A model generated the notes under the pieces. That model was not told the origin of the DNA, made no database searches, and worked only from the letters and a program-made list of their open reading frames with translations. Position numbers and translations under genes: made by a program. A stretch of 64,000 nt of DNA from Oscillospiraceae bacterium (GTDB taxonomy: Bacteria; Bacillota; Clostridia; Oscillospirales; Oscillospiraceae): the NCBI GenBank assembly GCA_017622995.1, contig JAGAQA010000053.1, positions 21,280 to 85,279 on the forward strand. Direction: 5' to 3'. Every line of letters begins with the position of its first letter. Position 1 is the stretch's first letter. This document shows, piece by piece, positions 15,234 through 25,300 of the stretch.

Positions 15234-16232
15234 TTACTTCAGCCTGGCAACGGAATCCCGGATCCGGACGCGCCCGGGGACCACAATCCGATCGGTCAGC
15301 GTGGTGCGGGGGCGCTCAATGAGGTCGATGATGCCTCTGGCGGCGGCCTTTCCCATGGCCCGGGTATCCTGGCAGTAGGTGGTCAGCCTGGGGGACAGGA
15401 TGTCGGCCAGCTGGACCCCGTCGTAGCCCATGACGGAAATATCCTGTGGGATCCGCAGGCCCTTTTCCCGGATGGCGTTGAGCCCGCCCACATAGGAGTA
15501 ATCATCGGGGAAGAAGATGCAGGTGGGCAGGTCCGGGCCGCTGAGCAGCTCCCGGGTCACCTTTTCGCAGACTTTCGCATCATGATACCGGCTTTCCCGC
15601 ACCAATGTGTCGTCAATATTGATGCCCAGGGCCTCACAGGCACGGTAGAATCCGGTGAGCCGGTTCTCGGTAACGGCGGTGCGCTCCCCGTGGATGTAGG
15701 CAAGCTTCCGGTGGCCGTTGATATAGGCGTAACGAACCAGGGCCTCCATGCCCTGCACATTGTCGGAGACCACCGACATACGGTTGTTGAACACATGGTC
15801 AATGGTGACCACGGGCAGGCTGGAATTCACCAGCTCCAGCACCTGGGGATCGGAAAAATCCACACAGGCAATGACCACGCCGTCCACACCCCGGTACTGG
15901 CAGTGCTGCAAATAGCTGGTTTGACCGCCTACGCTGCGGTTGATAAAGGTGACGTCATAGCCCCGGGATTCCACCTCCACCTTCAGGCTTTCCAGCATGG
16001 AGGAGAAGTATTCGTGGGCCAGACCGCTGTTCTGCTCGTCTACGAACAGAATGCCCACGTTAAAGGTACGGTTGGCCTTCAGCGCCCGGGCGGCGGAATT
16101 GGTTACATAACCCATCTCCGCGGCCACCTTATGGATTTTTTCCCGGGTTTCCTTGCCAATATCCGGCTGATCATTCAGCGCCTTGCTCACGGTAGCCACG
16201 GAGACGCCGCAGCGCCGGGCAATGTCTTTCAT
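15234..16232 (-). CDS. LacI-family transcriptional regulator
   Basis: A 332-residue repressor-type regulator. The N-terminal helix-turn-helix is MKDIARRCGVSVATVSKALN and the hinge is NSAARALKANRT. The periplasmic-binding-protein-like effector domain follows (VGILFVDEQNSGLAHEYFSS; ISVMGYDGVQLADILSP near 275). ATG 16232 aligns with family starts; a TTG at 16241, nine bases after GGAAGGAG, would add three residues and is equally plausible. It diverges from the cellobiose phosphorylase gene, with operator-like AATCGTTTTC sites between them, so it likely controls that gene in response to a sugar. It is a close paralog of the LacI protein at 24251-25300. Confidence 0.93.
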   Translation of the reverse strand: MKDIARRCGVSVATVSKALNDQPDIGKETREKIHKVAAEMGYVTNSAARALKANRTFNVGILFVDEQNSGLAHEYFSSMLESLKVEVESRGYDVTFINRSVGGQTSYLQHCQYRGVDGVVIACVDFSDPQVLELVNSSLPVVTIDHVFNNRMSVVSDNVQGMEALVRYAYINGHRKLAYIHGERTAVTENRLTGFYRACEALGINIDDTLVRESRYHDAKVCEKVTRELLSGPDLPTCIFFPDDYSYVGGLNAIREKGLRIPQDISVMGYDGVQLADILSPRLTTYCQDTRAMGKAAARGIIDLIERPRTTLTDRIVVPGRVRIRDSVARLK

Positions 16233-16322
16233 GGAAACCAATGAGGCACGCTCCTTCCCTTGCGGCACACAGGCAAAGCTCCTTTGAGGGGGAGAAAAGA
16301 GCCCTATGCCGCGGCATTTTCC

Positions 16323-16391
16323 GGGGAAGCTCCGAATCAACCGGCCGGGGCCGGAGGGCGAAGCTGCTGCCAATTGGATCAGAGCTTCCCT
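16323..16391. repeat. dispersed palindromic repeat, copy 1
   Basis: GGGGAAGCTCCGAATCAACC at the left end and CAGAGCTTCCCT at the right end are near-inverted. The same end sequences and a central CTGCGGCTGG-like block occur at 41181-41260 and 52252-52415. It lies in the 480-bp gap between the LacI and phosphorylase genes. Function unknown. Confidence 0.6.
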
Positions 16392-16403
16392 AAATCGTTT
16401 TCG
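16392..16403. promoter_or_regulatory. LacI operator-like site
   Basis: AAATCGTTTTCG is identical to 12 bases of the operator at 24054-24067 upstream of the paralogous LacI gene. Thirty-seven bases (16398-16434) also form a looser dyad, TTTTCGTAAA...TTTACGAAAA. Confidence 0.5.
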
Positions 16404-16668
16404 TAAAATAAGCATAGCGCATAATTTACGAAAAAGCAAGCGTAATCCGAAAAAATTTTGGTCAAAATACAAATAACCGGCGGCCTGCACAAAAGGGAAA
16501 CGGTGTTTCTAGAGGATTTGACCAGTGCTACGATACAAATTCTTACGAAAACTGCACAAAGACCTACCGCACCAGTTGGTGAATTTCCACGGAAAACCCT
16601 GGGACACAGAAAAACTATTGCATTTTTGTCCCCAATAATGTACTCTAAATGGGAAGTTCTCATTACTT

Positions 16669-16680
16669 AATCGTTTTCAA
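16669..16680. promoter_or_regulatory. second LacI operator-like site, before the phosphorylase
   Basis: TAATCGTTTTCAA (16668-16680) shares the core ATCGTTTTC with the other sites. It is 32 bases before the phosphorylase start, where a bound repressor would block transcription. Confidence 0.45.
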
Positions 16681-16711
16681 AGCGGTGGGAATAGAAAAGG
16701 AGGAAATGGAT

Positions 16712-19150
16712 ATGCAGTTCGGTTATTTTGATGACGCCCGCCGGGAGTATGTCATTAACACCCCCAAGACGCCGCTGCCCTGGATCAACTACCTGGGAAG
16801 CGAAGCATTTTTCGCGCTGGTGTCCAATACCGCAGGCGGCTACAGCTTCTATAAGGATGCGCGGCTGCGCCGGCTGACCCGTTATCGATACAACAACAGT
16901 CCCCTGGATTCAGACGGCTTCCACATTTATGTGCGCAATGCCGACGGAACCGTGTGGAATCCCGGCTGGCAGCCCACTCAGACGGAGCTGGATGCTTACC
17001 AGTGCCGTCACGGCCTGGGCTATACGGTTCTGGAGGGCAAAAAGAACGGAATTACCGCCAAACAGGAAATGATGGTCCCCCACGGCGACAACTGCCTGCT
17101 GATGCGCCTCACCGTAACCAACGGGACGGAATCCGCGCAAACGATTTCGGTCTTCCCCTATCTGGAATTCTGCCTGTGGGACGCCATGGACGATTCCTCC
17201 AATTTCCAGCGCAACTTCTCCACTGGTGAGGTGGAGGTTACCGACCGGGCCATCTATCACAAGACCGAGTACCGGGAGCGCCGGGACCACTATGCGGTCT
17301 TCTGGTCCGATACCCCCTTCGATGGCTTTGATACCACCCGGGATGCCTTTGTGGGCGTATACGGCGGCCCCCAGCTGCCCCAGGCGGTGAAGAACGGCCG
17401 CTGCACCGGCTCCGTGGCCCACGGCTGGGCTCCTGTGGGCGCCATGCAGTTTGACCTGACCCTGGAGCCCGGGAAGAGCAGCAGCATTCTGCTGGGCCTG
17501 GGCTACATCGAGAACCCCCAGGAGGAAAAGTTCGCGGCACCCGGCGTCATCAACAAGGTCCGCGCCGATGCCATGATGGAAAAATTTAATGCCCCCGGCC
17601 GGTTCGATGCCGCCATGGCCCAGCTGGCAGAGCACTGGCAGCAGCTCCTTTCCAACTACTCCGCCTCCACCGGTGACGAGAAGGTGGACCGGATGGTCAA
17701 CATTTGGAACCAGTACCAGTGCATGGTCACCTTTAATATGTCCCGTTCCGCCAGCTACTTCGAAAGCGGCATGGGCCGGGGCATGGGCTTCCGGGACTCC
17801 TGCCAGGATCTGTTGGGCTTTGTCCACATGATCCCCGAAAAGGCAAGAGAGCGGCTGCTGGATATTGCGGCCACCCAGTTCCCCGACGGCTCCGCCTACC
17901 ATCAGTACCAGCCCCTGACCAAGAAGGGCAACCTGGCCGTGGGCTCCGGCTTCAACGACGACCCCCTGTGGCTGGTGGCCGGTACCGATGCCTATCTGCG
18001 GGAAACCGGCGACTTCTCCATTCTGGAGGAGCAGGTGCCCTTCGACAATGACGAGAGCCTGGCCGCCCCCTTCATGGAGCACCTGCGCCGCAGCGTCAAC
18101 TATACCATGACCCACCTGGGACCCCATAAGCTGCCCCTCATCGGCCGGGCCGACTGGAACGACTGCCTGAACCTGAACTGCTTCTCCGCCCATCCCGGGG
18201 AGAGCTTCCAGATCACCGGTCCCAGCGAGGGCCCCGTGGCGGAAAGCGTGTTCATCGGCGGTATGTTTGTCAAGTACGGCAATGCTTATGTAAACCTGTG
18301 CCGCCACCTGGGTCTGGATCAGGAGGCCGATCAGGTAGCCGCTGCCGTGGCCGATATGGACAAGGCCTGCCTCACCGCCGGTTGGGACGGCGCCTGGTTC
18401 CGCCGGGCCTACGATGCCTACGGCGCGCCTGTTGGCAGCAAGGAGTGCAAGGAGGGGCAGATCTTCATCGAGCCCCAGGGCATGTGCGTCATGGCCGGTA
18501 TCGGCAAGGAAACCGGCCAGGCGGCTCTGGCCATGAAGAGCGTGGAAGAGCGGCTGGATACCAAGTACGGCATCGTGCTGCTGCAGCCTGCTTATACCGA
18601 GTATTACCTCAACCTGGGCGAAATCAGCTCCTATCCTCCCGGATACAAGGAGAATGCGGGCATCTTCTGCCATAACAATCCCTGGATTGTCTGCGCGGAA
18701 GCGGAGCTGGGCCACGGCGACCGGGCCTTCCAGGTCTACCGCCGCACCTGCCCCGCCTATACCGAGGCCATCAGCGAGATCCACCGCACCGAGCCCTATG
18801 TTTACAGCCAGATGATCGCGGGCATCGACGCTCCCAGCTTTGGCGAGGCCAAGAACTCCTGGCTTACCGGCACCGCTGCCTGGACCTTCCTGAGCATTTC
18901 TCAGGCCATTCTGGGCGTGGTGCCCACCCTGGACGGCCTGATGCTGGATCCCTGCGTTCCCAGCGACTGGAAGGAATTCACCGTCTGCAGAAAGTACCGG
19001 GGCGCGGATTACGAGATTCATGTGCGCAATCCCAAGGGCGTCCAGAAGGGTGTTGCCGCCGTCACCGTGGACGGAAAGCAGATTTCCGGCAATGTGCTGC
19101 CCATCGCGGCTGCCGGGACCAAGGTGACCGTGGAGGTAACACTGGGATAA
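16712..19150 (+). CDS. cellobiose phosphorylase (GH94)
   Basis: An 812-residue cytoplasmic enzyme that splits cellobiose with phosphate into glucose-1-phosphate and glucose. The N-terminus [20 protein letters not shown] followed by PLPWINYLG is characteristic of cellobiose phosphorylases, as is [13 protein letters not shown] near 65. The (alpha/alpha)6 barrel holds the general acid aspartate in [10 protein letters not shown] (about 480-490). Length equals the usual 810 or so. ATG 16712 is chosen over 16706 because AAAGGAGG ends at 16703. There is no signal peptide, so the enzyme works on imported disaccharide, fitting the sugar ABC transporter and GH3 genes 8-15 kb away. Chitobiose or other GH94 specificities cannot be excluded by eye. 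Confidence 0.9.
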
Positions 19151-19180
19151 CTTCTTTCACCGAAACAGAATGCGATTTGT

Positions 19181-19211
19181 CTGCCGCTCCAAAGGGAGCG
19201 GCAGATTTTTT
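19181..19211 (+). terminator. terminator of the cellobiose phosphorylase gene
   Basis: CTGCCGCTCC (19181-19190) pairs with GGAGCGGCAG (19195-19204), followed by ATTTTTT. A textbook intrinsic terminator 30 bases after the stop. Confidence 0.92.
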
Positions 19212-19231: not shown

Positions 19232-19261
19232 TTGACAACCCCGCGGTGCTGCTGTTATAAT
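19232..19261 (+). promoter_or_regulatory. promoter of the ligase-decarboxylase-carrier-MBOAT operon
   Basis: TTGACA (19232-19237), an 18-base spacer and TATAAT (19256-19261). The start would be near 19268, leaving a leader of about 40 bases. The boxes match consensus perfectly, so the operon is likely expressed constitutively at a good level. Confidence 0.85.
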
Positions 19262-19308: not shown

Positions 19309-20820
19309 ATGAATAACGTCTTACAATACCTCTGCGCCAGCGCCAGCCGCTATCCCCAGCGTACGGCGGTGCTGGATGACCGGAAAGCCTATACCTATGA
19401 AGCCTACTACGATCTGACCCGGCGCATCGGTTCCGGCCTTGCGGCGGTAACCGGCCAGCGGCAGCCTGTGGGCGTTTACATGGAAAAGTGCGCCGACGCG
19501 GTGGCGGTGTTCATGGGCGCGGTTTGGGCAGGCTGCTTCTATTCCTGCCTGAATACGGAGCTGCCCGGCGCCCGCCTGCAGCAGATTGTGTCCGTTTTGG
19601 AGCCCGAGGTCATTGTCACCCAGCAGTCCCTTCTGGACCGGGCCAGGGAGCTTTTTCCCCAGACTAGGCTCCTGACGGTGGAAAGCCTGTCCGAGGAAAA
19701 GGTGGACGCGGACCTGCTGGATCTGCGGCAGGCAAGGGCCATCGATACCGATGTGCTTTATGTAAACTTCACCTCCGGCTCCACCGGTGTGCCCAAGGGC
19801 ATCGCCGTGGGAAACCGCAGTGTCATGGATTTCATCGACTGCTTTGTGCCTCTGTTCGGCATTGACTGCACCGATGTGATTGCCAATCAGGCACCCTTTG
19901 ATTTTGACGTGTCCGTGAAGGACATCTATTCCGCCCTCCATGCAGGAGCGGCCCTGGCGGTGGTGCCCAGACGGCTCTTCTCCGCCCCCACCCAGCTCAT
20001 TGATTTCCTGTGCGACACCGGCACCACCACCATGATCTGGGCGGTGTCCGCCCTGTGCCTGATTACAGGCTTCCATGCCCTGGATTACCGGACCCCGGAG
20101 ACGGTGAAGAGAATCATCTACTCCGGCGAGGTCATGCCCCTGAAGGCTCTGAAGGAGTTCCGGAAGCACCTGCCCGATGTGCTGTATGTCAATGTCTACG
20201 GCCCCACGGAGATCACCTGCAACTGCACCTATCACATTCTGGAAAAGGACCGGGACTATGCGGACGGGGTGCCCATCGGTGTGCCCTTCCCCAACGAGGA
20301 TGTGTTCCTGCTGGATGGGGAGAATCGGCTGGTGGAAGACCCGGATACCGAGGGCGAGATCTGCGTCCGGGGCACCGCCCTGGCCCTGGGCTATTACCGC
20401 AATCCGGAGCAGAACCAGGCCCATTTCGTCCAGAATCCCCTGAATCCCAACTATCCGGAGCGGATTTACCGCACCGGCGACCTGGGGAAATACAACGACC
20501 GGGGAGAGCTGGTCTTCTCTGGCCGGAAGGATTTCCAGATCAAATACATGGGCCACCGCATCGAGCTGGAAGAGATTGAGCGGGCCATGAACACCATTGA
20601 CGGCGTGGAGCGGGCCTGTTGCCTGTTTGACGAAAAGCGCTCCCGGCTCAAGGGCTTCTATGTGGGCTCCATCGATAAGGATGCCCTCCACGCTGCCATG
20701 AAAAAGGATATGCCCGCCTTTATGGTTCCCGGCATTCTGCGGCAGGTGGAGGCCATGCCCCTGACCAAAAACGGAAAAATCGACCGGAAAAAGCTGGCGG
20801 AAATGGCGGGAGGAAGATAA
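19309..20820 (+). CDS. amino-acid adenylating ligase (DltA-like)
   Basis: A 503-residue member of the ANL adenylating family, closest in appearance to D-alanine:carrier-protein ligase DltA and free-standing NRPS adenylation domains. Visible motifs: NFTSGSTGVPKG (P-loop, near 151), FDFDVSVKDIYSAL (A4; the aspartate that binds an amino group is present), VNVYGPTEITC (A5), YRTGDLGKY (A7), GRKDFQIKYMGHRIELEEIE (A8 hinge) and NGKIDRKKL with the catalytic lysine (A10). It should activate an amino acid with ATP and load it on the carrier protein encoded two genes on. It leads a four-gene operon without dltD or dltX. The intervening PLP decarboxylase is not part of the classical dlt pathway, so the substrate may not be D-alanine. 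Confidence 0.85.
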   Translation: MNNVLQYLCASASRYPQRTAVLDDRKAYTYEAYYDLTRRIGSGLAAVTGQRQPVGVYMEKCADAVAVFMGAVWAGCFYSCLNTELPGARLQQIVSVLEPEVIVTQQSLLDRARELFPQTRLLTVESLSEEKVDADLLDLRQARAIDTDVLYVNFTSGSTGVPKGIAVGNRSVMDFIDCFVPLFGIDCTDVIANQAPFDFDVSVKDIYSALHAGAALAVVPRRLFSAPTQLIDFLCDTGTTTMIWAVSALCLITGFHALDYRTPETVKRIIYSGEVMPLKALKEFRKHLPDVLYVNVYGPTEITCNCTYHILEKDRDYADGVPIGVPFPNEDVFLLDGENRLVEDPDTEGEICVRGTALALGYYRNPEQNQAHFVQNPLNPNYPERIYRTGDLGKYNDRGELVFSGRKDFQIKYMGHRIELEEIERAMNTIDGVERACCLFDEKRSRLKGFYVGSIDKDALHAAMKKDMPAFMVPGILRQVEAMPLTKNGKIDRKKLAEMAGGR

Positions 20821-21984
20821 GTGACGGATATTACAAAGCTTTGCGACAGGGCCTACTATGTGTTTGACTTCCGCGTTCTGGAAAAGAGAGTGGCCTACCT
20901 GCGGGATTTGCTGGGAACGAATGTGGACATTGCCTACGCCATCAAGGCCAACCCCTTCCTGGTGGAGGGCCTTCGCAGTCAGGTGGAGCGGCTGGAAATC
21001 TGCTCCCCCGGCGAAAGCGAGATCTGCGACGGCCTGGGGATCGACCCCAAGATGACCGTGATTTCCGGCGTCAACAAGACCCCGGCCTTTATTGAAAAGC
21101 TGGTGAAAAACACCGACGGCCGGATCTATACCGTGGAGTCCCTGACCCAGTTTGCGCTGCTGGCCGCTCTGGCGGAAAAGTACGGCAAGCGCCTGAAGGT
21201 GCTGCTGCGGCTGACCAACGACAGCCAGTTCGGCATCAACGAAGAGGATATTGAGCACATCATCGAAAACCGGGAAAGGTATCCCTGGCTGGATTTCCGG
21301 GGCCTTCAGTTCTTCTCCGGAACCCAGAAGACTTCTCTCAAAAAGCTGAAGCGGGAGCTTGTCCACCTGGATGAACTCCTGCTCCGGCTGGAGGAACAGT
21401 ACGGCTACCGGTCACCGGAGCTGGAATACGGCACCGGCTTCCCGGTTGCCTACTTTGGCGAGGATCTGGAGGAGGAAGCCCTCATCACCGGCTTCCGGCA
21501 GCTGCTGGAGGAAATGCGGTGGCAGGGGCACATCACCCTGGAGCTGGGGCGGTCCATTGCCGCCTCCTGCGGCAGCTACTTTACCCATGTGGCGGATAAA
21601 AAGCGCAACCACGGTCAGAACTACCTGATTCTGGACGGCGGAATGCACCAGATGATCTATTTCGGCCAGTATATGGGCATGAAGCAGCCCCGGGTCACCC
21701 TCTGCGGCAAGGAGGACCGGGAGCCCACCGATCAATGGAACCTGTTCGGCAGCCTGTGCAGCATGAACGATATTCTGGTGAAGGCCCTGCCCCTGCCGGA
21801 GGTGGAGATCGGAGATACCCTGCGCTTCTACAATACCGGCGCCTACTGCGTCACCGAGGGCATGGCCTTGTTCCTCAGCCGGGATCTGCCCGCCGTTTAC
21901 CTCATCGATTTGGAAGGAAACCTGATCTGCGCGAGAAAGACCATGGAGACCTTCCCTCTCAATACACCCAATAAAGAGCTCTGA
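20821..21984 (+). CDS. PLP-dependent fold-III amino acid decarboxylase
   Basis: A 387-residue protein of the ornithine/DAP decarboxylase group (alanine racemase fold). The Schiff-base lysine is in YAIKANP (about 39-45), the PLP-phosphate motif is ELGRSIAASCG (about 240) and the trans-subunit cysteine and aspartate are in CSMND (about 317). FYNTGAY (about 337) holds the second PLP contact. The HIGS-type histidine of DAP decarboxylases is replaced in LQFFSGTQ, so substrate handling differs. It starts at GTG 20821, right after the ligase stop, with GGAGGAAG upstream. Placed between a ligase and its carrier protein, it recalls BtrK of butirosin synthesis, which decarboxylates glutamate while it is bound to the carrier BtrI. 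Free lysine, ornithine or DAP as substrate is the alternative. Confidence 0.85.
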   Translation: MTDITKLCDRAYYVFDFRVLEKRVAYLRDLLGTNVDIAYAIKANPFLVEGLRSQVERLEICSPGESEICDGLGIDPKMTVISGVNKTPAFIEKLVKNTDGRIYTVESLTQFALLAALAEKYGKRLKVLLRLTNDSQFGINEEDIEHIIENRERYPWLDFRGLQFFSGTQKTSLKKLKRELVHLDELLLRLEEQYGYRSPELEYGTGFPVAYFGEDLEEEALITGFRQLLEEMRWQGHITLELGRSIAASCGSYFTHVADKKRNHGQNYLILDGGMHQMIYFGQYMGMKQPRVTLCGKEDREPTDQWNLFGSLCSMNDILVKALPLPEVEIGDTLRFYNTGAYCVTEGMALFLSRDLPAVYLIDLEGNLICARKTMETFPLNTPNKEL

Positions 21985-21999
21985 AAGGAAACAAATCAT

Positions 22000-22227
22000 A
22001 TGAACGAACTGCTTGAAATTCTGAACGACATTCAGCCCGGTGTGGACTTTGAAAACGAGACCCACCTGATAGACAATCACCTGCTGGACTCCCTGTCCAT
22101 CATCTCCCTGGTTGCCGAGCTGGAGGATACCTTCGATATGACCATTCCCGCCGTGGAGATCATTCCCGACAACTTCAACTCCGCTGAGGCTATGATGGAG
22201 ATGATCCAGCGGCTTCAGGAAGACTGA
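22000..22227 (+). CDS. acyl/aminoacyl carrier protein (DltC-like)
   Basis: A 75-residue acidic four-helix carrier protein. The phosphopantetheine serine is in LLDSLSIISLVAELED (about 28-43, DSL motif). Length matches DltC and small stand-alone carrier proteins. AAAGGAAAC precedes ATG 22000, and the stop lies two bases before the MBOAT gene. It would carry the amino acid activated by the first gene, be the platform for the decarboxylase and hand the product to the MBOAT protein. Confidence 0.9.
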   Translation: MNELLEILNDIQPGVDFENETHLIDNHLLDSLSIISLVAELEDTFDMTIPAVEIIPDNFNSAEAMMEMIQRLQED

Positions 22228-22229
22228 GC

Positions 22230-23861
22230 ATGGATGTGCTCTCCCTGCTTCACGCAGGTGCTCACCCTGGCCTCACGGCCTTTTTCTCCCTGCACTACCT
22301 GGGCCTGTTTCTGCCCGCGGCGGTGATCCTCTTTTCCCTGACGCCGAAAAAGGGGAAAAAGTACACCCTGCTGCTTTTGAGCCTTGGGTTCTACTGGCTG
22401 ATCAGCGGTGTGCTCATCGGCTACCTGGCGGCATCCGTGGCGGTGCTCTGGGGCTGCGGACTGTGGATGAATTCCCTCCAGAAAAAGCGGGACATTGCGG
22501 TGAAAGCGGCGGAAAAACCGGACCGAAAGGCCATTAAGAAGAAGTACAACGGGTATTGCCGGCTGATTATGGGGCTGGCGGTGGCGGCACACATTGCCCT
22601 CATCCTGGTGCTCAAGTATTCCGGCTTCTTCCTGACCAACGTAAACGCCCTTTTCGGCACCGGGTTTGCCATCCCGGAGTATCTGAAGCCCCTGGGCCTT
22701 TCCTTCTTCATTCTGCAAAGCGTCTCCTATCTGGTGGACGTATACCGGCAGACCATCCCCGCAGACAGCAATCCCCTGAGACTGCTGCTGTTCGTCAGCT
22801 TCTTTCCCCAGATCGTGGAGGGCCCCATCTGCCGCTACAGCCAGACGGCCCAGCAGCTTTGGGAGGTTCAGCCCATCCGGTATGAAAACCTGACGGCGGG
22901 ACTGCAAAGAATCCTATGGGGCCTGATGAAGAAGTTGGTGGTGGCTGACCGGCTGAATCCCTTTGTGGAGGAGCTCTTTACCCATCACGCCGGTTACCCC
23001 GGCTGGCTGAGCCTTCTGGGAGCGGTGCTGTACACGGTGCAGCTCTACATGGATTTCTCCGGCTCCATGGACGCGGTCTGCGGCACGGCCCAGATTTTCG
23101 GTATTACCATGCCGGAAAACTTCCGCCGGCCCTTCTTCTCAAAGAGCATCTCCGAGTTCTGGAACCGCTGGCACATTACCCTGGGCACCTGGTTCCGGGA
23201 TTACATCTTCTATCCCGTTACCATGTCGGGGCCTATGAAGAAGCTTACCGGCTCTGCCAGAAAGAAGCTGGGCAACCATTTTGGCCCCCTGCTGGCAGGG
23301 TCCGTGGCCCTGCTCTGCGTCTGGTTTTCCAACGGCCTGTGGCACGGTGCCGCCTGGCACTACATCTTCTTTGGCCTGTACCACTTTGTGCTGATTCTGC
23401 TGGGCAACTGCTTTGCACCCTATCTGAAAAAGGCCAATGAGCGGCTGGGCTTTACCCCGGAAAACAAGCCTTTCCGGGTGTTCCAGATGCTGCGGACCTC
23501 GGCGCTGGTGGTGTTCGGCGAGCTGATCTTCCGGGCGGAGAACCTGGCCCAGGCCGGTGGGATGCTCAAAGCCATCTTTACGAATTTCGGGCCCCTGCGG
23601 GGCTGCTATTCCACGCTGAAAACCGCGCTGGAAGCCTCCGGCTGTGATGTGCTGGATCTGCTCATTGTGGCGGTGGCGGTGTGCATTGTGCTGGTTGTCA
23701 GCATTTTGCAGGAAAAGGGTGTGGAAATCCGGGGCAGCCTGAACCGGAAGCCCACGGCCCTTCGCTGGGCAGTGTGGTATGCCCTGATCCTCTTTATTCT
23801 GATTTTCGGCGCCTATGGCGTGGGCTACATCCCGGTAGACCCCATGTACGCGAATTTCTGA
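22230..23861 (+). CDS. MBOAT-family membrane O-acyltransferase (DltB/AlgI-like)
   Basis: A 543-residue polytopic membrane protein with about ten hydrophobic segments. SEFWNRWHITLGTWFRDYIF and the conserved histidine in FSNGLWHGAAWHYIFFGLYH are the MBOAT core. Family members DltB and AlgI pass an acyl group from a cytoplasmic carrier through the membrane to an outer polysaccharide or teichoic acid, usually with an SGNH/AlgX or DltD partner that is absent here. The gene is two bases after the carrier gene and ends at a strong terminator, so it closes the operon. The likely role is transfer of the aminoacyl or amine-bearing acyl group to a cell-envelope polymer; the acceptor is unknown. Confidence 0.88.
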   Translation: MDVLSLLHAGAHPGLTAFFSLHYLGLFLPAAVILFSLTPKKGKKYTLLLLSLGFYWLISGVLIGYLAASVAVLWGCGLWMNSLQKKRDIAVKAAEKPDRKAIKKKYNGYCRLIMGLAVAAHIALILVLKYSGFFLTNVNALFGTGFAIPEYLKPLGLSFFILQSVSYLVDVYRQTIPADSNPLRLLLFVSFFPQIVEGPICRYSQTAQQLWEVQPIRYENLTAGLQRILWGLMKKLVVADRLNPFVEELFTHHAGYPGWLSLLGAVLYTVQLYMDFSGSMDAVCGTAQIFGITMPENFRRPFFSKSISEFWNRWHITLGTWFRDYIFYPVTMSGPMKKLTGSARKKLGNHFGPLLAGSVALLCVWFSNGLWHGAAWHYIFFGLYHFVLILLGNCFAPYLKKANERLGFTPENKPFRVFQMLRTSALVVFGELIFRAENLAQAGGMLKAIFTNFGPLRGCYSTLKTALEASGCDVLDLLIVAVAVCIVLVVSILQEKGVEIRGSLNRKPTALRWAVWYALILFILIFGAYGVGYIPVDPMYANF

Positions 23862-23893: not shown

Positions 23894-23922
23894 ATGCCCC
23901 TTCTCCGGAAGGGGCATTTTTC
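23894..23922 (+). terminator. terminator of the four-gene dlt-like operon
   Basis: ATGCCCCTTC (23894-23903) pairs with GAAGGGGCAT (23908-23917) around TCCG, followed by TTTTTC. It is 33 bases after the MBOAT stop. Confidence 0.9.
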
Positions 23923-24250: not shown

Positions 24251-25300
24251 ATGCCAACCCTCAGAGACGTGGCCACCGCCTGCGGGGTGTCCCCGGCTAC
24301 GGTCAGCAAGGCACTGAACAATGCCCCTGATGTGGGCCAGGAAACAGCCCAGCGAATTCGTCAGCGGGCCAAGGAATTGGGCTATCACCCCAATGCCGTT
24401 GCCCGGACGCTGAAGACCAATCGCAGTTACAGCATCGGCGTCCTCTTTGAAGACGAGATGCACAGCGGCCTGACCCACGAGTTCTTTTCCAGCGTACTGG
24501 ACGCACTTAAGAACGGCGTGGAGTCAAGAGGCTACGATGTCACGTTCATCAGCAGAAACCTGGGCGCCGCCTCTATGAGCTACCTGGATCACTGCCGTTA
24601 CCGCAATTGCGACGGCGTGGTGATTGCCAACGTGGATTTCCGGGACCCTTCGGTGGCGGAACTGGTTGCCAGCGGCATTCCGGCGGTGACCATCGATTAT
24701 GTGTTCGATGGAACCAGCGCGGTGATGTCCGACAACGCCAGGGGAATGCGGGAGCTGGTTACCTATGTGCACAGCCAGGGCCACAGGGATTTCGCCCTGA
24801 TCCATGGTGAGGAAACGGCGGTGACCAGGGTCCGGATGGCATCCTTCTACAGGACCTGCCGGGATCTTGGCATCACAGTCCGGCCGGATCTGGTAATCAG
24901 AGGACAGTTCAACAATCCCGAAGCTTGCGGCCTGGTAACGAGATCCATTCTGGAGCGCCGGGATCGCCCCACCTGCATTTTTTATCCCGATGACATCGCC
25001 CTCCTGGGCGGCATGACCGAGATTGAACGCTGGGGGCTCCGGATTCCGGAAGACATCAGCGTGGCAGGCTACGATGGGATTAAGCTCAGCCGGTTCCTTC
25101 GCCCGGAGCTTACGACCCTTTGCCAGGATACCCAGGCAATGGGATCTGAGGCGGCAAGACTGCTGACCCAGGCCATTGAGGAAAATAAGGCGTTTATGCC
25201 TCAGGTCGTTATGGTTCCGGGGTCCCTGCAGCCCGGCGGCACCGTGGCAAAGCTCCATTCCCAGAGCACCGGTATTGAAGCCGGGAACAAACGGTACTAA
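24251..25300 (+). CDS. LacI-family transcriptional regulator, sugar-locus type
   Basis: A 349-residue regulator. The HTH is TLRDVATACGVSPATVSKAL, the hinge is NAVARTLKTNRS and the effector domain contains IGVLFEDEMHSGLTHEFFSS and ISVAGYDGIKLSRFLRPEL near 280. It is a clear paralog of the protein at 15234-16232; long runs match (VESRGYDVTFI, TCIF.PDD, TTLCQDTQAMG-like). It lies 46 bp upstream of a sugar-binding lipoprotein gene and is preceded by paired operators, so it probably controls itself and the downstream ABC-YesL-GH3 genes. The inducer is probably an oligosaccharide or its breakdown product. Confidence 0.93.
   Translation: MPTLRDVATACGVSPATVSKALNNAPDVGQETAQRIRQRAKELGYHPNAVARTLKTNRSYSIGVLFEDEMHSGLTHEFFSSVLDALKNGVESRGYDVTFISRNLGAASMSYLDHCRYRNCDGVVIANVDFRDPSVAELVASGIPAVTIDYVFDGTSAVMSDNARGMRELVTYVHSQGHRDFALIHGEETAVTRVRMASFYRTCRDLGITVRPDLVIRGQFNNPEACGLVTRSILERRDRPTCIFYPDDIALLGGMTEIERWGLRIPEDISVAGYDGIKLSRFLRPELTTLCQDTQAMGSEAARLLTQAIEENKAFMPQVVMVPGSLQPGGTVAKLHSQSTGIEAGNKRY

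Follow-up and report, generated by a model that had tools for sequence, protein, structure and literature searches.

We analysed a four-gene operon in a 64,000-nucleotide stretch of DNA from an Oscillospiraceae bacterium (hereafter, the window), which corresponds to positions 21,280 to 85,279 of contig JAGAQA010000053.1 in GenBank assembly GCA_017622995.1 (G000:C44:21280-85279). The host genome comprises 2.55 Mb in 66 contigs. The genes lie head to tail on the + strand and encode an adenylating ligase (19309..20820; Pfam AMP-binding), a fold-III pyridoxal phosphate (PLP) decarboxylase (20821..21984; Pfam Orn/DAP/Arg decarboxylase), a carrier protein with a DSL phosphopantetheine site (22000..22227; Pfam PP-binding), and an MBOAT acyltransferase (22230..23861; Pfam MBOAT). 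The GTG start codon of the decarboxylase gene abuts the stop codon of the ligase gene, and all four reading frames are open throughout. The ligase contains the motif FDFDVSV (Asp200), and the codons at 23841..23858 (+) encode a C-terminal hexapeptide of the MBOAT protein, PMYANF (Tyr540), which matches the acyl-shuttle motif presented in the available part of PMC12148441. A sigma-70-type promoter, TTGACA-18-TATAAT, with 12 of 12 matches and a TG preceding the −10 element, is located at 19232..19261 (+), and a terminator-like hairpin with a T-rich tail follows the operon at 23894..23917 (+), just past its end at 23861. The scanned 5.3 kb held four promoter-like sites (2.2 expected from shuffles) and nine terminator-like sites (5.7 expected); only the strongest sites therefore carry weight. 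A preliminary description of this DNA had reported an intact four-gene set with these functions and motifs under a consensus promoter and closed by a terminator, and in all these respects it was accurate.

Searches with the decarboxylase sequence, or with a profile of eight decarboxylases, were run against genome samples that overlap one another. Matches were found in 9 of 150 genomes of the family at 1e-20 and, at 1e-60, in 17 of 394 genomes of the order, 15 of 391 of the class, and 4 of 398 of the phylum. The locus set (n = 29) consists of 28 genomes and Pseudoflavonifractor sp. MSJ-30. Two further matches of the family search (G078, 5e-24; G141, 8e-21) were left out and rejected as unit decarboxylases, as both score as LysA over the cut-off. 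The ligase, decarboxylase, carrier, and MBOAT genes occur together in 25 of the 29 loci, so that the four-gene neighbourhood, which the preliminary description had suggested looking for, is conserved as a unit. A fifth gene, encoding an SGNH-like protein, accompanies them within the cluster in every complete unit but that of the window locus (24 of 25). Gene order differs between units: the carrier may come first or before the decarboxylase, and the decarboxylase or the MBOAT may come first. Pairwise distances of the five proteins correlate (r = 0.84–0.94, each with the lowest P value that 999 permutations allow), a correlation to which shared species history contributes. The distribution is patchy, as none of the four same-genus genomes in the order sample (two of which are also in the family sample) carries the unit. 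Among plasmids, only distant relatives of the decarboxylase were found, with less than 60% identity in all 58 records. The gene set was not found described in the literature searched by titles and abstract openings, a coverage outside which most subscription journals and bioRxiv lie.

The four incomplete loci differ in kind. The contig of G247 ends just 3' of the decarboxylase gene. G646 is counted among the 29 loci and was rejected as a unit: its decarboxylase match (208 bits) lies in another neighbourhood with a poor ligase match approximately 4 kb away, and no MBOAT or SGNH match was found there. G095 (L016 2071-5686) and G647 (L076 6949-10170) have the ligase, decarboxylase, and carrier genes, with no MBOAT within the stretch examined, and in G095 a gene for a hexapeptide-repeat transferase stands between the decarboxylase and carrier genes; these loci perhaps represent another use of the same trio. 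The sole plasmid match to the ligase at 1e-60 (35% identity) is on a Paenibacillus cellulosilyticus plasmid (L094 7301-13307), in a cluster with a related carrier, GNAT, KAS III, SDR, and an aminoglycoside-acetyltransferase-like protein; a search of this cluster with the unit profiles found neither a decarboxylase nor an MBOAT.

The PLP lysine (K42), the catalytic cysteine (C313), and the Glu, Gly, and Arg of the ExGR motif are conserved by alignment in all 29 decarboxylases. When the profile of eight unit decarboxylases was searched against the PDB, BtrK ranked first (2.8e-52), ahead of diaminopimelate decarboxylases. An IQ-TREE phylogeny of 35 sequences kept 23 of the 28 unit decarboxylases, five near-copies having been left out beforehand. 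These 23 form one clade (support 100/100), which adjoins two VinO-like enzymes and one Streptomyces relative (89/90), and the carrier-dependent group is placed apart from LysA (100/99). The label VinO-like (L088 and L089) derives from the neighbouring genes, namely an AMP-binding protein, methylaspartate mutase, and type I polyketide synthase. LysA function was considered and rejected for the PLP enzyme. The window decarboxylase scores 143.8 bits against the LysA cut-off of 297.9, and a separate LysA-like gene, whose product scores 270.5 bits (also under the cut-off) and has a very long branch in the tree, is present in the same genome. Rxx[LM]Y and CE[SN], which we take to be the distal-site motifs of LysA, are present in three of the three LysA-like sequences compared, one of which (that of the window genome) is below the LysA cut-off; the unit decarboxylases have H/N-Q/H..Y..GQ-type and C[STA] sequences instead. 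The best NCBIfam model for the window decarboxylase is TIGR03099 (exosortase-A-associated decarboxylase), also below cut-off. The tree and the profile search support placing the unit decarboxylases among the carrier-dependent enzymes (BtrK and VinO-like), in line with the BtrK-type fold-III enzyme of the preliminary description. In the text available for PMC11284099, VinO decarboxylates a carrier-bound substrate. Carrier-bound decarboxylation is likewise described for BtrK in the available part of PMC7756342; it is also proposed there for BolN, and β-alanine did not rescue a BolN deletion.

The window ligase scores 319 bits with the amino acid adenylation model (cut-off 317.4) and falls far below the cut-offs of the DltA models (TIGR01734, 264.5 of 559.85; NF003417, 268.8 of 476 bits). 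Substrate-pocket positions are given in the numbering of GrsA. Among the 28 unit ligases, the equivalent positions are Asp235 (26), Val236 (25), Lys239 (26; Arg in 2), Trp278 (28), Ser301 (27), Cys330 (25), and Asn331 (25). Ligases of the VinN type, which activate a β-carboxyl group, are characterised by bulky residues at 236 and 301; the Val236 and Ser301 of the unit ligases also occur in enzymes that activate the α-carboxyl group. The numbering follows our alignment and the available part of PMC11253843; in that part, Val236 was selected in an engineered β-specific TycA, VinN has Ser299 at the second place, and Cys269 of Bacillus cereus DltA selects d-Ala. At the position equivalent to this cysteine, 27 of the 28 unit ligases have Ser and one has Val. 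The d-Ala cysteine is not universal among the DltA-like controls, so labelled because they stand beside DltD and a DltB-like gene (Cys in L092, Ala in L093). Since the basic residue at 239 sits where the side chain of the substrate lies, it argues for a predicted substrate with a second acid group. In a midpoint-rooted FastTree phylogeny, the unit ligases group together, closer to the Paenibacillus ligase and the DltA-like sequences than to VinN-like ligases.

The phosphopantetheine Ser of the carrier is conserved in 28 of 28 sequences, and the window carrier scores 34.7 of 68 and 20.1 of 52.35 bits with the DltC models. His315 and His372 are conserved in all 25 MBOAT proteins of the complete units, and the window protein scores 185.6 of 375 bits with the DltB model. 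The unit MBOATs are 512–571 residues long, compared with 377 and 381 in two DltB-like controls. All 25 have YxxF at the very C-terminus, and the first position of the FxYxxF shuttle motif is occupied by Pro (17, including the window), Phe (6), or Leu (2); C-terminal YxxF is absent from the two DltB-like controls. According to the accessible part of PMC12148441, PatA from Neisseria gonorrhoeae ends in FIYANF, an acyl-Tyr has been demonstrated on PatA, PatB transfers the acyl group from such a peptide to chitopentaose, and DltX carries the same motif for DltB. These comparisons support the assignment of the predicted acyl-shuttle motif in the unit MBOAT to the PatA kind, not the DltB kind.

The SGNH-like proteins are 302–384 residues long, with a hydrophobic N-terminal stretch (judged by eye), GDS in block I, and D..H in block V. 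The gene is located 3' of the MBOAT gene in 23 units and directly 5' of the ligase gene in MSJ-30; the match in one of the 24, G915, is weak (42 bits). Among 27 aligned sequences, including three unlinked copies from the window genome, the Gly and Ser of block I are conserved in all and the His of block V in 26. Of five unit proteins tested, two matched Pfam GDSL lipase below the cut-off (0.0058 and 0.068), and none matched Pfam DltD or any NCBIfam model. A profile search of the PDB with the SGNH alignment returned two chance-level matches only (0.3 and 0.81), both to unrelated proteins. From the motifs, the gene position, and the partnership with MBOAT, we infer that the fifth gene encodes a member of the SGNH family.

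Three homologues of this protein are encoded elsewhere in the window genome, at C39:9657-10580 (57% identity, 6.7e-112), C39:10627-11562 (41%), and C10:6147-6980 (41%). The family as a whole is not specific to the unit, since 36 of the 150 genomes sampled in the family have a homologue at 1e-10. At 1e-59 or better, matches are confined to five of these 150 genomes (G000, the window genome, and G128, G076, G066, and G145), all of which carry the unit, and the next best match is 1e-24. Two further unit-locus genomes of this sample have no such match: G061, with a weak match away from the unit, and G095, which is not among the matches. The SGNH partner of the window operon has most likely moved elsewhere in the genome and not been lost, and the first of the two tandem genes on C39 is likely the displaced partner. 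The preliminary description had noted the absence of DltD and proposed another acceptor or hand-over step; the absence of a DltD-like gene holds for the window locus only, as nearly all complete units have the SGNH-like gene and the window genome has a homologue elsewhere. On C39 (L032 9645-11649), the nearest MBOAT gene is approximately 4.4 kb from the tandem pair and has another gene beside it. On C10 (L035 4766-6971), the SGNH-like gene starts within approximately five bases of the end of a gene for a fold-I Orn/Lys/Arg decarboxylase (PF01276), forming a second decarboxylase/SGNH neighbourhood in this genome.

We propose that the operon encodes a carrier-fed MBOAT-SGNH pathway of envelope acylation that adds a decarboxylated acidic amino acid to an envelope acceptor, a reading to which we assign a probability of roughly 0.6. 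The ligase would adenylate an acidic amino acid in an ATP-dependent reaction and load it onto the carrier, and the PLP enzyme would decarboxylate the carrier-bound amino acid to an ω-aminoacyl thioester. Given this route, a β-alanyl group (from Asp) ranks somewhat above a γ-aminobutyryl group (GABA, from Glu), with a lysyl group third. The MBOAT would carry the acyl group through the membrane to the Tyr of its own C-terminal hexapeptide on the outside, from where the SGNH-family partner, presumably encoded in trans on contig C39 in the window genome, would take it to an outside acceptor; the product would probably be positively charged. The reading of the operon in the preliminary description is supported in part, by the conserved gene set, the BtrK/VinO-type ancestry of the decarboxylase, the basic residue and absent d-Ala cysteine of the ligase pocket, and the shuttle motif of the MBOAT; it gives way in its missing hand-over partner.

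Several findings weigh against the proposed pathway. The SGNH assignment rests on motifs and on Pfam matches below the cut-off, no SGNH match was found within the window, and the homologue on C39 shares 57% identity with its MSJ-30 counterpart, compared with 73–88% for the other operon proteins. All four other MBOATs of the window genome also end in FxYxxF, so YxxF marks the MBOAT type and not the unit. In a PDB search with the window decarboxylase alone, the diaminopimelate decarboxylase 2yxx (1.9e-24) and BtrK (3.1e-24) are not separated; the branch that unites unit and VinO-like enzymes is unstarred, and the tree does not resolve the position of BtrK. Two of the 28 unit ligases (G513/L065 and G389/L067) have Ile in place of the amino-binding Asp and Arg in place of the pocket Lys, which hints at a different substrate for these two. 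Furthermore, two VinN-like and two exosortase-A-associated ligases are three alignment columns shorter after the YGxTE motif and have K-R or F-R there, whereas the unit ligases show no such gap and have a full-length loop, mostly TCNC, as in the two DltA-like sequences. Because the short VinN-type β13–β14 loop with K/R is absent, activation of Asp or Glu through the side-chain carboxyl group is suggested by the decarboxylase, which points to a side-chain-linked substrate, and is not confirmed by the ligase. The loading of Glu or Asp put forward in the preliminary description, which had suggested predicting the ligase pocket, finds partial support: the basic residue, the replaced d-Ala cysteine, and the decarboxylase ancestry agree with it, and the shortened side-chain-loading loop is missing.

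The ungapped loop also bears on a different substrate. Meso-diaminopimelate or a similar diamino diacid might be loaded through its α-carboxyl group and decarboxylated at the far end while bound to the carrier; the exported group would then be a lysyl-type thioester. The canonical Asp235, the ungapped loop, and the basic pocket residue would fit such a substrate, and a decarboxylase without the LysA distal recognition motifs is what a tethered end would lead one to expect. We nevertheless regard this as unlikely, as the invariant Trp278 suggests a short pocket and the nearest known functional relatives use side-chain-linked Asp/Glu-type thioesters. To our knowledge, there is no precedent for diaminopimelate being loaded and then decarboxylated on a carrier. 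A reversed order of steps, in which the PLP enzyme works on a free amino acid before the finished ω-amino acid is loaded by the ligase, has a precedent in IdnL3 and IdnL1 of incednine synthesis, as given in the available part of PMC11284099; it too has a low probability in our estimate, since the basic pocket residue suits a substrate that still bears a second carboxylate and the decarboxylase groups with VinO-like enzymes.

Matches to the DltA, DltB, and DltC models, together with the DltA-like loop, would accord with a diverged d-alanylation system that has acquired an accessory decarboxylase. All these scores are far under the curated cut-offs, Ser replaces the d-Ala cysteine in nearly all unit ligases (although one of the two DltA-like controls also lacks it), and the decarboxylase is clustered and co-diverges with the ligase, making this explanation improbable. 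A small lipid or secondary metabolite bearing an ω-aminoacyl group, in place of a decorated polymer, is similarly improbable, for although ligase–decarboxylase pairs are known in secondary metabolism and exosortase-A glycan clusters, an MBOAT with a shuttle and an SGNH gene is a polymer-acylation layout in the available part of PMC12148441, and no polyketide or peptide assembly genes were recognised around the complete units when the open reading frame lists were inspected by eye with no dedicated search (the flanks of G915 not being covered).

The proposed carrier-fed pathway shares features with several known systems. Like the dlt operon (DltABCD and DltX), the unit has a ligase, a DSL carrier, an MBOAT taking an aminoacyl group from the carrier, and an SGNH-type partner. 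It differs in adding a decarboxylase, in an MBOAT that carries the shuttle motif itself, in a ligase without the d-Ala cysteine, and in its low scores with the Dlt models. DltD is absent from the window genome and present in one of 27 unit-locus genomes (G646 being outside this count); as the background in the class is also low (11 of 245 genomes), the idea that the missing DltD points to replacement of dlt by the unit was rejected. The C-terminal YxxF shuttle and the SGNH-like gene in the cluster resemble PatA/PatB and other MBOAT-SGNH systems. The donor in the unit would be a carrier protein, as the gene content suggests, whereas the MBOAT-SGNH systems other than Dlt use an acyl-CoA donor; in the available part of PMC12148441, the shuttle-fused MBOAT pathways have no carrier protein.

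In BtrI/BtrK (butirosin), VinN/VinL/VinO (vicenistatin), and BolO/BolC/BolN (bolagladin), a free-standing carrier is likewise loaded and a related PLP enzyme then decarboxylates on the carrier. These systems make antibiotics or lipopeptides, whereas in the unit the trio comes with a predicted pair for export and transfer, and the unit ligase, with the ungapped loop, is of another type than the VinN-like ligases. The exosortase-A-associated pair (TIGR03098 and TIGR03099) also has adjacent ligase and decarboxylase genes in a cell-surface context; the unit proteins score 180.4 of 592.35 and 175.5 of 478.45 bits with these models, and the exosortase-A ligase loop is gapped. On Sinorhizobium meliloti pSymB (L085 6307-9122), this pair lies among glycosyltransferase genes, and neither the annotation nor the profile matches of the stretch include an MBOAT; its substrate may also be loaded by the side chain, because its ligase has the VinN-like gapped loop. 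When the unit was compared with Dlt, VinN ligases, and LysA, it lacked defining features of each. On these comparisons, it is best read as a hybrid, with a putative Dlt-like carrier-bound donor, a PatAB-like shuttle and partner, and VinN/L/O-like chemistry, and not as a dlt operon.

In 7 of the 29 loci (G208, G273, G247, G301, G504, G748, and G853), a response regulator homologous to that of G208 is encoded no more than 4 kb from the unit; several other loci show little flank for this count. Six of the seven also have a homologous kinase, and G748 has a VanS-like kinase. Of the NCBIfam models, that of the VanR group fits the two tested regulators best, with scores below cut-off. The window locus has no such response regulator and is flanked by LacI-type genes instead. 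We tentatively suggest, as a conjecture held with less than even confidence, that the unit may provide a third way to feed MBOAT-SGNH export, in which the cargo is rewritten on the carrier (Asp/Glu to β-alanyl/GABA) before export. These Bacillota would then ester-link an ω-amino acid, and not d-alanine, to an envelope polymer, with a DltX-type shuttle fused to the MBOAT and a VanR/VanS-like system beside it in several genera, as an inducible charge modification.

Directly upstream of the operon, a gene for a GH94 family phosphorylase (window 16649-19150) is followed by a terminator-like hairpin (19179..19206, +), which separates it from the operon. Two LacI-type regulator genes, at window 15234-16490 (−) and 24251-25300 (+), flank the GH94 gene and the operon and point outward; the two appear similar by eye, the right one having been assigned by Pfam and the left one by eye. 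As LacI-type regulators stand on both sides and the right one precedes an apparent sugar ABC transporter, a carbohydrate locus may have been the site at which the operon was inserted. Elsewhere in the genome, a sulfatase-domain protein on contig C50 (28.8 bits, cut-off 25; partial frame) might be a lipoteichoic acid synthase.

In the textbook account, Gram-positive bacteria make their envelope less negatively charged by d-alanylation, and no DltD match was found in 234 of the 245 genomes sampled in the class of the window genome. If the proposed pathway is correct, the unit would be a conserved alternative to d-alanylation with different chemistry, yielding a new envelope substituent. It would also unite two mechanisms that have been treated as separate, namely the feeding of Dlt by a carrier and the fusion of shuttle and MBOAT seen in PatA.

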